Positions 47,071 through 64,000 of a DNA stretch of 64,000 nt are shown here, piece by piece (the first letter of the stretch is position 1; each line of letters starts with the position of its first letter). The notes beneath the pieces were generated by a model, which was not told where the DNA came from, did no database searches, and worked only from the letters and a program-made list of their open reading frames with translations. The translations under genes were made by a program, and so were the position numbers. The DNA comes from Hyphomonadaceae bacterium (GTDB lineage: Bacteria > Pseudomonadota > Alphaproteobacteria > Caulobacterales > Aquidulcibacteraceae), in the NCBI GenBank assembly GCA_016791425.1, contig JAEUMQ010000013.1, forward strand, positions 186,001-250,000, read 5' to 3'.

Positions 47071-48114
47071 GTGCTTCTACCGACGAGCCTTGTCGGCTCC
47101 TACCCACAGCCCGATTGGCTGATTGACCGCGAGAACCTGAAGGGACGTTTCCCCCCGCGCGTGCGCATGCAGCAGCTCTGGCGCGTCGCGCCGGAATATC
47201 TGGAACAGGCCCAGGACGACGCCACGCTCATCGCCATCCGCGACCAGGAACGCGCGGGGATCGACATCGTCACCGACGGCGAGATGCGCCGCGAGTCCTA
47301 TTCCAATCGCTTCGCCAACGCCCTTGAAGGCGTAGACATGGAGAAGGTCGGCGAAGCGCTCGACCGCTCCGGCCATCCCAATCCCGTGCCGCTCGTCACC
47401 GGCAGGATCCGCCGCAAGCACGCCGTGCAGGTGCGCGATGTCCAATTCCTGCGCGCCAACACCGACCGCCAGATCAAGATCACCGTGCCCGGTCCCTTCA
47501 CGATGTCGCAGCAGGCGCAGAACGCCTTCTACGCCTCCGAGGCGGAAATGGCGAACGACTATGCCGACGCTGTGAACGCCGAAATCAAGGATCTCTTCGC
47601 CGCCGGCGCCGATGTGGTTCAGATCGACGAACCCTACATGCAGGCGCGCCCGAAACCGGCGATGGAATATGGGCTATCCGCGCTCAACCGCGCGCTCGAG
47701 GGCGTGCAGGGCACCACCGCGGTCCACATCTGCTTCGGCTACGCCCATATCATCCATGAGCGCCCGTCCGGCTATTCCTTTCTCACCCAACTCAAAGCAT
47801 CGCCCATCGGCCAGATCTCGATCGAGACCGCGCAATCGAATCTCGACACGTCCGTGCTCAAGGACCTGCCGGGCAAGACCATCATCCTCGGCGTGCTCGA
47901 TCTCTCCCTCGATGCGATCGAAACACCGGAGGTCGTCGCCGACCGCATCCGCCGCGCCTTCGCCGATGTGCCGCCGGAACGCATCATCGTCGCGCCCGAT
48001 TGCGGCTTCAAATACATGACGCGCGAAATCTCGTTCGCGAAGATGAAGGCGATGGTCGATGGCGCGAAGATTGTTCGCGCCGAGCTCACCGGCAAGAAAA
48101 TAGCCGCTACCTGA
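47071..48114 (+). CDS. MetE-like C-terminal-domain methyltransferase
   Basis: 347-aa protein like the catalytic half of cobalamin-independent methionine synthase. Zinc ligands by pattern: His219, Cys221 (AVHICFG), Glu252 (ISIETAQ) and Cys311 (VAPDCGFKY). The folate-binding N-terminal half of full MetE is missing, so the methyl donor may differ. GTG start at 47071 has GGAGG seven bases upstream. It overlaps the convergent CoA-transferase by 8 bases. No metE or metH partner is adjacent. Confidence 0.85.
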   Translation: MLLPTSLVGSYPQPDWLIDRENLKGRFPPRVRMQQLWRVAPEYLEQAQDDATLIAIRDQERAGIDIVTDGEMRRESYSNRFANALEGVDMEKVGEALDRSGHPNPVPLVTGRIRRKHAVQVRDVQFLRANTDRQIKITVPGPFTMSQQAQNAFYASEAEMANDYADAVNAEIKDLFAAGADVVQIDEPYMQARPKPAMEYGLSALNRALEGVQGTTAVHICFGYAHIIHERPSGYSFLTQLKASPIGQISIETAQSNLDTSVLKDLPGKTIILGVLDLSLDAIETPEVVADRIRRAFADVPPERIIVAPDCGFKYMTREISFAKMKAMVDGAKIVRAELTGKKIAAT

Positions 48115-59778: not shown

Positions 59779-60552
59779 TCAGGCCGCATCCACGAAGCGA
59801 ACGCAAAGCCCCGCTTCATCCCGCTCGATCCGCGCATCGATCTCGAACAGCTCCTTGAGCAGCCCCGGGGTAAAGACCTCCCCCGTCGGCCCGTCGGCAA
59901 CCGCCCGGCCGCCCTTCAGCGCCAAGATCCGATCGGCATAACGCGCCGCCAAAGAGAGATCATGCAGCGCCACGATGACCAGCCGTCCGCGCGCCGCCGC
60001 GTCGCGAAGCCGATGCATCGCGTCGAGCGCATGCTTTGGGTCGAGCCCGGCGATCGGTTCATCCGCGATCAGCAGCTCCGGATCGCCGACCATCGCCCGG
60101 GCGAGCATGGCGCGCGCAAGCTCGCCGCCCGAAAGCGTCGTCACGGATTGCTCGCGCTTTGCCGCAAGGTCGCAGAGCGCCAACATCTCGCCGACGCGGG
60201 ACTTCTCCGAGGCCGGCAGATCGCCGAACGCCGGAAGGATCGGCGTCAGGCCGAGCGCCACGACGCGCTCGACGCTGATCGGCCACTCGCAGCGCGCGTT
60301 CTGCGGCAGGTAGCCGCGCCGCTTCGCAAGCGCGCGCCGATCCATGCCGAGCACCGGCGCACCATCCAGCGCCACCGCGCCCTTCTCCGGCCTCAAGAGA
60401 CCCGCAAGCGCAAGCAGCAATGTGGACTTGCCCGCGCCATTAGGACCGATGACCCCGACCAGGCCCGGCGCCGACCAGGACGCCGAGACATCATCGACGA
60501 TCGCCTTGCCGCCGCGCAGAACGCTGACGCCGCTCGCTTCCAGTATCGCCAT
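59779..60552 (-). CDS. btuD: Cobalamin/iron-complex ABC transporter ATPase BtuD-like
   Basis: 257 aa with Walker A GPNGAGKST, signature LSGGELARAML, Walker B LLIADEPIAGLD and H-loop ALHDLS. Family is the B12/haem/siderophore importer type, and position next to btuB points to B12. No BtuC permease gene is adjacent on this strand; it may lie to the right of btuF outside the window. It follows btuB by 19 bases. Confidence 0.85.
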   Translation of the reverse strand: MAILEASGVSVLRGGKAIVDDVSASWSAPGLVGVIGPNGAGKSTLLLALAGLLRPEKGAVALDGAPVLGMDRRALAKRRGYLPQNARCEWPISVERVVALGLTPILPAFGDLPASEKSRVGEMLALCDLAAKREQSVTTLSGGELARAMLARAMVGDPELLIADEPIAGLDPKHALDAMHRLRDAAARGRLVIVALHDLSLAARYADRILALKGGRAVADGPTGEVFTPGLLKELFEIDARIERDEAGLCVRFVDAA

Positions 60553-60571: not shown

Positions 60572-62485
60572 TCAGAAGCCCGCGCGCAGCCCGACATAAA
60601 CCGCACGCCCCGGCGCTCGCGTGGTGTAAATCTCCTCATAGGTCTCATCGAGAGCATTTTCGACCCGCCCATAGAGATCAAGCTTTTCCGTGAGCCGCAC
60701 GTCGCCGCCGACATTCACCAGCGTGAAGGCGGGCAGCTCGATCGGATAAGGCCCGCTCAGCGTGAAATTGTTGTCCAGCATCTTGCCGTTATAGCGCACG
60801 GTCGCAAACGCGCCGAACCGGTCGGAAAGCGAACGCCACGCAAGATTGACGCTCCCGATGCGCGGCGGCCGTCGCACTTCCTCCGCGCCGTCCTGGGTCG
60901 CGTCGAGATAGGTGTAGGAAGCCGAGAGCCGCCATTGCTCGCCCAGCGACGCCTCCGCGCTCACCTCCACGCCTTCGCGCTCGGATTCGGTCCCCAGATT
61001 GATCGGCGTGCAGAGCGGGTAGGCCGAACAATCGAGCGTGATCTCGTCCTCGAGCGCGGCGCTGAAATAGGTCACGTCGATCCGCCCCCGGCCGTCCCAG
61101 AAGCGCTGCTCCACGCCCGCCTCCCATCCGTCGGATTTCTCCGGCGTCAGGTTCGGGTTGCCCACATAAGTCGCGCCGACAAAGCCATAAAGCTCCGAAT
61201 ACCCCGGATTCTTGATCCCCGAGCCCGCGGCCGCATGCACCCGCGTCCCGCTTCCGAAGAGATAGCTCGCGTTCACCTGATAGGTGTCCGCATCGTCGAA
61301 GCGATCGTTCGCATCGAAGCGGTACGCGGCCCCGATCCCGAGCCGGCCCTGCGCGACAAGCTGATATTGCGCAACATAGCCGGTGTTCTCGATCCGCCGC
61401 TCCGACGCGAATTCCGCCGGCGTGAACGGCGACGTCGTCCGGAACGTCTCGCGCTCGAAGTCGAGCGCGCCGGTTAGCGTTTGCACAAGATCGTCGTCGC
61501 CGAAACGCAGCGAGCTCGCATAGGAACCCTTGAGCCGCCCGCCTTCGGAGCCCGAAGCGCGCGCGGCATCGGAGAATCCCTCTCGGCTCGCATCGACGCC
61601 CTGCAGGCTGAGCACATTCCACCAGCGCCCGTCGAGCAGCTCGAACTCTCCGCTCAAGAGGCCGTAGGCGGCCTCGTTCTGGTAATAATCGTCGCTGTCG
61701 ATGACGAACCCATAAGTCGCGCCCGGCGGCCAGTTGAAGTCCTGGTCGTTGGACTGCGCCTCGGTGTAGGCGTAGCGCCCGATCGCGCGGATGCGGAAAT
61801 TCTCCGCGATGTCGAACACGAAGCGTCCTGAAAGCACGCTGTTTTCGGCGCCCAGCTCGCGCACGCCGAACCGCGACGTGGGCGTCCCATCCGTCTTCTG
61901 GTAGCCGACGCTCACCGCGAAATCGACCGGCCCCGCCACATCCGCGACGCGAAACGCGGCGTCCCATGAATTGAACGAGCCGACCTCAAGGCGCCCGCGC
62001 ACGCCGGGCGCCTCCGCGCCGCTTGCTGTGATATAGTGGATCACGCCGCCGATCGCGTCGGAGCCGTAAAGCGCGCTCTGCGGCCCGCGCAGGACTTCAA
62101 TGCGCGAGACATCGTCCGCGATCAGCGTCGCGAACTCGAACTCCCCGAAATAAGGATCGGCGGCCTCCATGCCGTCGATGAGAACGAGCGTGTGGTTGCC
62201 TTCAGCGCCGCGCATGCGCACTTGCGTGAGGCCTCCCACCGCTCCCGCGCGGCTCACCGCGACGCCCGGCACGTCGCGCAGAAGGTCCGATATGACGCGC
62301 GTCTGGCGCGTCTCCACGCTCTCGGCCCCGATCGCCGTCGCTGAGAGCCCAAGCGTGTCCCGCGACAGCCCCGCGCCCGCGCGCGTGGCGGTGACGATGA
62401 TCTCGCCTTCCTCCTGCGCGAACGCGAAAGACGGCGCAGCGGCGAGGGCCAACGCCAACGCCGCGCTCGAAAGGTGCTCACTCAT
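60572..62485 (-). CDS. btuB: TonB-dependent cobalamin receptor BtuB-like
   Basis: 637-aa outer-membrane receptor: signal peptide ending AFAQ, a TonB box-like IIVTATR near residue 30, plug domain (ISDLLRDVPGVAVSRAG, VRMRGAEGNHTLVLIDGMEAADP), a large beta-barrel and a C-terminal Phe (YVGLRAGF). Specificity for B12 is inferred from the upstream cobalamin riboswitch. ATG 62485 has GGGGGA upstream. Coupled to btuD. Confidence 0.9.
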   Translation of the reverse strand: MSEHLSSAALALALAAAPSFAFAQEEGEIIVTATRAGAGLSRDTLGLSATAIGAESVETRQTRVISDLLRDVPGVAVSRAGAVGGLTQVRMRGAEGNHTLVLIDGMEAADPYFGEFEFATLIADDVSRIEVLRGPQSALYGSDAIGGVIHYITASGAEAPGVRGRLEVGSFNSWDAAFRVADVAGPVDFAVSVGYQKTDGTPTSRFGVRELGAENSVLSGRFVFDIAENFRIRAIGRYAYTEAQSNDQDFNWPPGATYGFVIDSDDYYQNEAAYGLLSGEFELLDGRWWNVLSLQGVDASREGFSDAARASGSEGGRLKGSYASSLRFGDDDLVQTLTGALDFERETFRTTSPFTPAEFASERRIENTGYVAQYQLVAQGRLGIGAAYRFDANDRFDDADTYQVNASYLFGSGTRVHAAAGSGIKNPGYSELYGFVGATYVGNPNLTPEKSDGWEAGVEQRFWDGRGRIDVTYFSAALEDEITLDCSAYPLCTPINLGTESEREGVEVSAEASLGEQWRLSASYTYLDATQDGAEEVRRPPRIGSVNLAWRSLSDRFGAFATVRYNGKMLDNNFTLSGPYPIELPAFTLVNVGGDVRLTEKLDLYGRVENALDETYEEIYTTRAPGRAVYVGLRAGF

Positions 62486-62684
62486 GGATTCCCCCGTCGG
62501 CGTCGCAACGACTTCAACGGGAAGGCTTCCCAAGGCCACGCCGATGGCGCGGCGCCCAGGTCGGCATACCGGCGGACGGACGCCCGAAGCGCCTGCCGGC
62601 CAGCCGATGCAGCCCTCCGCTGCGTTCGTCGCTCAGACGGGTTCCCGCGCCTGGACCATCCCCTGGACCCAAGCAAGAGCGACA

Positions 62685-62880
62685 CGCGCCGACCGGTCTC
62701 CTGGCTTGCGGGTCCTCACGCGATGCGCGGCCTTCCCAGGCTCATTGAGCCCAGTGACTGCAATCCGGCCTGCCGTGAAGACAGACGCGGACCACGTGCG
62801 CATCGCGCTCGCCGCTCACAGTTGCAGGGACAGCCGCAGAATAGGAGCCTCGCTCCGCACTGCGTTCCCGTAGAGCCCTC
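62685..62880 (-). promoter_or_regulatory. Cobalamin riboswitch upstream of btuB
   Basis: On the minus strand the B12-box AAGCCAGGAGACCGGTC lies at 62691-62707. Further upstream are the conserved CCTGCAACTGTGAGCGG piece (62812-62830) and a GGGAACGCAGTGCGG piece near 62870. The core fits a class I cobalamin aptamer. Its leader to btuB (62486-62684) holds no gene and no clear terminator; the ribosome site (GGGGGA) near the ATG is a likely target. Confidence 0.88.
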
Positions 62881-63029
62881 GCGGGCGCCGGCGCGATATC
62901 GGAAGCAAGCCGAGGCTCGCTTCCGGCGGCCCGCTTAGCAGGGGTGTTTGCAGCAGCGCAAGAGCGTTCGCATGCCCTCGCCGCCGCGTTGACAAGCTGT
63001 GGCAAGATCGACACCTTCGCGCGCGACGG

Positions 63030-63222
63030 TCCCTTCTCCGGAAGGGCAAAAGGGAATGCGGTGCGGCGCAAGCCATCCAGGCGCACGCCAAGTCCGCAGC
63101 TGCCCCCGCAACTGTAAGCGGAGAGCACGAAGCCGAAAGCCACTGGAGAGGCGCTGGAGCGCAGCTCTGGGAAGGTCGGCCTAAAGTGCGCTCGATCCGC
63201 GAGCCAGGAGACCTGCCGTCCT
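63030..63222 (+). promoter_or_regulatory. Cobalamin riboswitch upstream of btuF
   Basis: On the plus strand the B12-box GAGCCAGGAGACCTGCC is at 63201-63217, with GGGAATGCGGTG at about 63051 and CCCGCAACTGTAAGCGG near 63105-63121, plus CTGGGAAGG at 63168. This is a second, separate aptamer pointing away from the btuB one. Between 62881 and 63029 lies the promoter-bearing core of the divergent region, without a recognised promoter. Confidence 0.88.
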
Positions 63223-63231
63223 CGCATCGTG

Positions 63232-63259
63232 CGTCGCCGGGCGGGGCCCCTCGGCGACG
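63232..63259 (+). promoter_or_regulatory. Hairpin after the btuF riboswitch (possible expression platform)
   Basis: CGTCGCCG (63232-63239) and CGGCGACG (63252-63259) form an 8-bp stem around a 12-base loop, 15 bases past the B12-box. No T-run follows, so it may act by Rho or by folding rather than as an intrinsic terminator. 107 bases remain to the btuF ATG without an obvious gene. Confidence 0.4.
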
Positions 63260-63366
63260 GCTGCGCTCGCAGAAGCGCTTCCCTTGCGCGTGGGCGCGAG
63301 GCCTTCCGCGGTCCGTGACGATGGCGGACCAATGCCGGCCTTCCTGATGCACAACGGCGCGCCGCG

Positions 63367-64000
63367 ATGCTGACGCGCCGTGCAACCGCCCTCGGCGCGA
63401 TCGCCGCCTGCGTCCCCGCCGGCGCCGCGCACGCAACCCCGATCCGCGTCGTCTCGCTCAATCCGTGTCTCGACACGATCCTCGTGCACGTCGCCGACCG
63501 CAGCCAGATCGCAGCGCTCAGCCATTATGCGCGCGAGCCCGGCGCCTCGACGATTGCCGATATCGCCCGCACGCTTCCCTTCACTTACGAGAGCGCCGAG
63601 GAGATCGTCGCCCTCCGCCCCAGCCTCGTTCTCGCCAGTCATCATTCGGGGCTAGCCACGCGTCAGGCCCTTGCCCGCCTGGGCGTCGAGGTCGCGACCT
63701 ATGGCGTACCCGACAGCGTTGAAGCGAGCATCGCCCAGATCGCCGACGTCGCGCGCCGCGTCGGTCGCCAGCAAAACGCCGCAACGCTGATCGAACGCAT
63801 TCGCGCGCGCCTCGCCGAAGCCGAACGCGGCGCAACGCGACGCCCCATCAAGGCGCTTGTCTTCCAGGCGCGCGGCCTCGTCGCCGGCGAAGGCACGCTC
63901 GCCGACGAATTGATGCGGCGCATCGGCTTCGACAACGTCGCGGCGCGCTATGGCGTGCATCAATGGGGCAACGCGCCTCTCGAGCTGCTTATCGCCGATC
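63367..64000 (+). CDS. btuF: Cobalamin-binding periplasmic protein BtuF-like (3' truncated)
   Basis: The frame is open from ATG 63367 to the window edge; 211 residues are visible, with no stop. A twin-basic-looking start (MLTRRATALGA) leads into a signal peptide ending near AHA, then the helical-backbone substrate-binding fold of the BtuF/FhuD type (RVVSLNPCLDTILVHVADRS, FTYESAEEIVALRPSLVLASH, TYGVPDSVEASIAQIADVA). Riboswitch context supports a B12 ligand. The rest, and likely btuC, lie beyond the window. Confidence 0.85.
   Translation, partial: MLTRRATALGAIAACVPAGAAHATPIRVVSLNPCLDTILVHVADRSQIAALSHYAREPGASTIADIARTLPFTYESAEEIVALRPSLVLASHHSGLATRQALARLGVEVATYGVPDSVEASIAQIADVARRVGRQQNAATLIERIRARLAEAERGATRRPIKALVFQARGLVAGEGTLADELMRRIGFDNVAARYGVHQWGNAPLELLIAD

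Follow-up and report, generated by a model that had tools for sequence, protein, structure and literature searches.

The window that we analysed is a 64,000-nucleotide stretch of an alphaproteobacterial genome (Hyphomonadaceae bacterium; G000, whose locus extended beyond the window is L003, with other G and L numbers denoting compared genomes and loci). Near its right end, a single spacer running from the ATG of a btuB-like gene (62485, minus strand) to the ATG of a btuF-like gene (63367, plus strand) parts two divergent gene sets. The features of the locus are, from left to right:

59779-60552, minus strand: btuD-like ABC ATPase, 257 aa (ABC_tran), which groups in the tree with type 2 BtuD
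60572-62485, minus strand: btuB-like TonB-dependent receptor, 637 aa (TonB_dep_Rec_b-barrel and Plug); GACGGGGGAATCC precedes its ATG
62519-62529, minus strand: S2, putative partner of S1 (arms chosen by eye)
62611-62621, minus strand: S1, putative switch segment, able to fold locally as a hairpin or to pair with S2 (arms chosen by eye)
62628-62683, minus strand: P13 element of the btuB leader, a predicted three-way junction (consensus fold with compensatory changes, 11 leaders)
62674-62907, minus strand: cobalamin aptamer of the btuB-btuD leader, the type 2 arm (RF00174, 71.5 bits, E = 1.2e-15, model positions 1-189)
62957-62962, minus strand: candidate -35 box CTTGCG, also in G001
62989-62994, plus strand: candidate -35 box TTGACA, also in G001
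63011-63234, plus strand: cobalamin aptamer of the btuF-btuC leader (RF00174, 102.4 bits, E = 1.7e-24, model positions 1-189)
63232-63259, plus strand: P13-like hairpin of the btuF leader with CGGGG in its loop, the same in G001 and G002 bar one base
63367-64000, plus strand: btuF-like periplasmic binding protein (Peripla_BP_2), running off the window; 280 aa in L003
L003:7963-9180, outside the window: btuC-like permease after btuF (BtuC models best, below cut-off)

A first-pass annotation of the sequence had placed two divergent cobalamin riboswitches in this spacer, and an Infernal scan bore this out: across the whole window, cmscan at gathering thresholds returned two matches only, both full-length matches to the cobalamin model RF00174 (cut-off 31.5 bits), on opposite strands and 103 nt apart. 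A permissive scan of 62400-63400 added to these a single chance match far below its cut-off, and no third RF00174 match was found in the 4.36 Mb assembly. Neither arm lacks the core structure. Each covers the whole aptamer model, keeps the B12 box AGCCAGGAGACC and the conserved P5-L5 region (GCUGUCCCUGCAACUG and GCUGCCCCCGCAACUG), and has complementary L5 and L13 loops. The scores leave no doubt that both elements are cobalamin aptamers by sequence and structure, and both are classed as adenosylcobalamin-type riboswitches. They are only 53% identical to each other, differing in L5, L13 and their periphery. With a complete aptamer on each strand, each heading its own operon, the two leaders would be expected to respond separately to B12, as the annotation had predicted.

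The genes beneath the leaders encode a receptor, a binding protein, a permease and an ATPase of the right families (Pfam/NCBIfam), all under cobalamin riboswitches. B12 models rank best for the receptor (TIGR01779, the B12 receptor model, 212 bits, below cut-off) and for the permease, and none of the BtuB-, BtuC-, BtuD- or BtuF-like proteins reached its NCBIfam equivalog cut-off; these models seem to be built on distant enterobacterial proteins. A role in B12 transport is thus suggested by gene context and relatives, hence our term Btu-like. The leftward unit proved to be as annotated, with btuB followed by btuD after 19 nt. The rightward leader was also as annotated in its position, but it precedes btuF-btuC and not btuF alone. 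Dividing the locus into receptor and binding protein is therefore too simple, because one ABC complex is split over two leaders, its ATPase sharing the left one with the receptor and its permease the right one with BtuF. About 5 kb past btuC, outside the window, lie a TrbE-type conjugal transfer ATPase and its neighbours (L003:14336-16804; G000:C8:256336-258804), which raises the possibility that the btu locus borders an integrative conjugative element.

The genome encodes a MetH above cut-off, a full-length MetE was not found, and CobM/CbiF, the sole biosynthesis family looked at, gave a sub-threshold match only, which together suggest that B12 is needed and imported. The MetH match (G000:C19:323905-327642) falls into two stretches, with an in-frame TAG reported within one of them, and MetH may be made as two proteins or by reading through its end. 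Six partial MetE matches occur in the genome; one of them, a MetE-like protein of 367 aa in the window (47074-48084), corresponds to the C-terminal half of MetE only (108.8 bits, below cut-off).

In corrinoid riboswitches, loop L5 of the aptamer kisses loop L13 of the expression platform, and the L5 consensus quoted is UCCCG (PMC10653944, PMC11260477). Both arms here match RF00174 over its full length, well above the gathering score, and show the L5-L13 kissing complement described in those reports. The btuB arm is distinguished by L5 UCCCUG (within 62821-62834, minus strand) with L13 CAGGGG, complementary as CAGGGGA, and by a three-way-junction P13; in this genus the P13 of the btuF arm is a plain hairpin, and this arm pairs L5 CCCCCG (within 63099-63112, plus strand) with an L13 containing CGGGG. 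Among 30 leaders (18 from the btuB-arm search and 12 others, with L13 located by eye), the two loops vary together, L5 ending in CUG going with an L13 starting CAG and L5 ending in CCG with CGG; G290 is the exception, with an L13 starting CAU opposite an L5 ending in CUG. An L5-L13 kissing loop is thus predicted in both arms, with differing sequences.

For the btuB leader, the P13 consensus fold from 11 leaders contains 19 pairs, five of which are kept through changes on both sides. When this structure was imposed, 96.6% of 205 cells were paired, and none of 500 shuffles reached the covariation score, a test favoured by deriving the structure from the same sequences. The region 3' of the btuB aptamer is nearly invariant among G000, G001, G002 and G029. 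These data bear on whether the btuB-side aptamer has degenerated and ceased to sense B12, leaving a single working switch. Its lower score and the mismatch of its outermost P1 pairs with the model would fit such decay, but its conservation in other genomes and genera, with matching L5-L13 and a covarying P13, makes decay very improbable.

We found no terminator-like site in the leaders, which, by analogy with other members of the family, makes translational OFF control the likeliest mode for both arms. Further downstream in the btuB leader, before the ribosome binding site, an S1-S2 helix shows compensatory changes (66 of 70 cells pair in 10 distinct rows) and beats all 2,000 partner shuffles, part of this excess reflecting the choice of its arms by eye. 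Leader by leader, S1-S2 pairing was not above shuffles in most single leaders, nor was direct pairing of a conserved block with the ribosome binding site. A 22-nt pattern of this block, at up to three mismatches, matched in nine of 385 class genomes, our own included, and the eight non-self loci, none of which had an Rfam match at threshold, were taken as chance, so we rejected it as a conserved block outside riboswitches. A conserved upstream open reading frame over L13 of the btuB leader (eight codons, ATG to TGA, MVQAREPV) was likewise rejected: inspected by eye, the frame is retained in G001, G002, G029, G105 and G228 and broken in G025, G720, G290 and G077.

Two further observations concern the leader ends. 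The btuF start (63340-63367) has no clear Shine-Dalgarno sequence, whereas G001 carries GGGGGAAG at the equivalent position. An inverted repeat, CGGAAGC..GCTTCCG (62900-62925), lies immediately 5' of the btuB aptamer, and since different inverted repeats occupy this position in G001, G002 and G029 (by eye), a protective hairpin may form the start of the btuB transcript. A consensus sigma-70 promoter scan found no full match. The two candidate -35 boxes stand back to back, separated by 26 bp in this genome and by 16 bp in G001; if they are real, two polymerases would hinder each other and the two leaders would be coupled at initiation.

Close divergent pairs of cobalamin riboswitches are rare but recurrent. 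Pairs less than 2 kb apart occurred in two of 60 family genomes (G000, G001), three of 299 order genomes (G000, G001, G105) and two of 71 class-sample genomes (G000, G340), all three counts using stricter filters that may miss weak aptamers. For the order count, positions were read in the family genomes and in 40 others with at least two matches, as genomes with fewer cannot form a pair. G001 has the same gene split and the same divergent layout as our genome; G029 has the same split with the two units in tandem; and G002 has it with the units on different contigs and btuC beyond a contig end. In the same order, G105 carries back-to-back RF00174 aptamers like those here, 86 nt apart (L043:9601-10108), but with unlike cargo, namely NicT-, CobW- and CobN-type genes opposite a TonB receptor. 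In the same class, the aptamers of G340 are likewise back to back, 68 nt apart, and there BtuB- and BtuF-like genes face a putative cobalt transporter cluster (by eye). G340 has two divergent pairs in all, at G340:C15:113705-115118 and 132401-132898, in which the aptamers are separated by about 1.0 kb and by 68 nt, respectively.

We compared the arms across genomes. Among themselves, the btuB arms of G000, G001, G002 and G029 share 78-88% identity, against 53-60% with the btuF arms. When the 3' part of the btuB arm served as a BLAST query, 102 of 398 order genomes gave matches, mostly to the conserved aptamer part only. Matches reached the query end in G000, G001, G002, G029, G105, G228, G720, G762, G025, G077 and G714, and those in G726 and G239 extended to position 113/114 of the btuB-arm query. 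In G228, G720 and G290 the leader is followed by btuB, and no other btu relative was detected in the surrounding stretch. In G077, G714 and G762, by contrast, btuB is accompanied behind this leader by BtuC- and BtuD-like genes, together with a binding protein of weak similarity. A local inverted duplication within the spacer, which a close, divergent pair of one RNA family might bring to mind, is refuted by this arm-by-arm grouping: each arm is far closer to its counterpart in other genomes than to its neighbour, and the btuB arm is found elsewhere without the other arm nearby. We regard its probability as negligible. The arms of G105 follow the same division, its btuB-type arm grouping with the btuB arms here and the other with the btuF arms of this genus (SH-aLRT 68 and 90). 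As these arms are related one by one yet serve other cargo on one side, the divergent pair may be older than its present cargo.

In Phenylobacterium and relatives, one riboswitch precedes btuB, followed by btuF-btuC-btuD. The Phenylobacterium btuB-(gene)-btuF-btuC-btuD operon (L047-L054; L051 is cut inside btuB, with its leader outside the available sequence) encodes homologous BtuF (52-57% identity) and BtuC (57-67%) behind one RF00174 leader, with all genes on one strand, whereas here btuB and btuD belong to another lineage, lie on the opposite strand and have a second leader. In our trees, one operon lineage (type 2, the set recovered with the btuB-arm search) takes in BtuB, BtuD and the left aptamer, and the other, the Phenylobacterium type, takes in BtuF and BtuC (names were given to the groups once the first trees were available). 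The AU test, which covered BtuD and BtuC only, rejected forcing BtuD into the Phenylobacterium set (p = 1.5e-5) and BtuC into the other, non-Phenylobacterium set (p = 8.2e-8); in FastTree, the groupings of BtuB and BtuF were supported at 0.999 and 1.0. Here the btuF arms are 63-66% identical to type 2 and 60-62% to type 1, over a shorter aptamer core that discriminates the lineages weakly, so it is BtuF and BtuC, and not the aptamer, that assign the right half to its lineage. In G139 we also noted two very similar btuB-btuF-btuC-btuD operons (L093, L094), each behind its own cobalamin riboswitch.

The transporter is thus probably a chimera of two operon lineages, as its gene trees suggest. Two switches would be present because the halves of the transporter derive from different lineages, and history accounts for them better than design. 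No genome with both complete operons was seen among those examined, so complementary loss from a two-operon genome is only one of several possible routes to the present arrangement, replacement by transfer being another.

An alternative in terms of design is that tuning of the two switches to different B12 concentrations explains why both have been retained, one threshold applying to receptor and ATPase and another to binding protein and permease. Different thresholds for the two leaders are plausible in themselves, given aptamers that share just 53% identity and are unlike in L5-L13 pairs and peripheral parts, and the btuB arm is conserved across genera. Separate descent, however, already accounts for the aptamer difference, and with ATPase and permease of one complex on different leaders, separate thresholds would unbalance that complex. 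We therefore hold tuning to be an unlikely reason for the retention of both switches. More speculative, and in our judgement quite improbable, is the idea that an importer drawn from two lineages is balanced by its two unlike riboswitches, driven by back-to-back promoters, as a two-threshold stoichiometry controller, the pair being a portable unit whose cargo is swapped between families; it is suggested by G105, where both arms occur but one side carries other genes.

Our preferred reading, which we hold with good though not full confidence, is that two divergent riboswitches each repress translation of their own operon at a locus that forms one transporter from two lineages. It builds on what the computations showed directly, namely both aptamers, both L5-L13 complements, the covariation of the left P13 and the separate descent of the gene halves. 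At high intracellular B12, ligand binding would let L5 kiss L13, stabilizing the P13 element and masking the ribosome binding site, and each switch would thereby repress translation of its operon. The left leader would control the outer-membrane receptor and the ABC ATPase, and the right leader the binding protein and the permease. In evolutionary terms, the left unit would have kept btuB and btuD with their own leader and the right unit would have retained btuF and btuC behind a different one, possibly through complementary gene loss, and the parts would join as one working chimeric transporter.

The kind of regulation is known, but its layout is uncommon and its history interesting. Tandem riboswitches (PMC9481103) also place two aptamers in one non-coding stretch. 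Aptamers in tandem act on one transcript, whereas here there are two divergent transcripts. In the portions of the literature available to us, including PMC545781, PMC11260477 and PMC10653944, we found no divergent cobalamin riboswitch pair described, and such a pair may well have been described before. Of greater interest are the genes, as one transporter has apparently been assembled from two operon lineages, each half with its own riboswitch. The locus offers a natural pair of cobalamin riboswitches of different descent that share a cell and a spacer, each controlling one half of a single transporter. Such a pair would allow parallel measurements of threshold, stoichiometry and promoter competition. 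Riboswitches would appear to travel with operon fragments, and a small regulon can thus carry two unlike copies of the same sensor.
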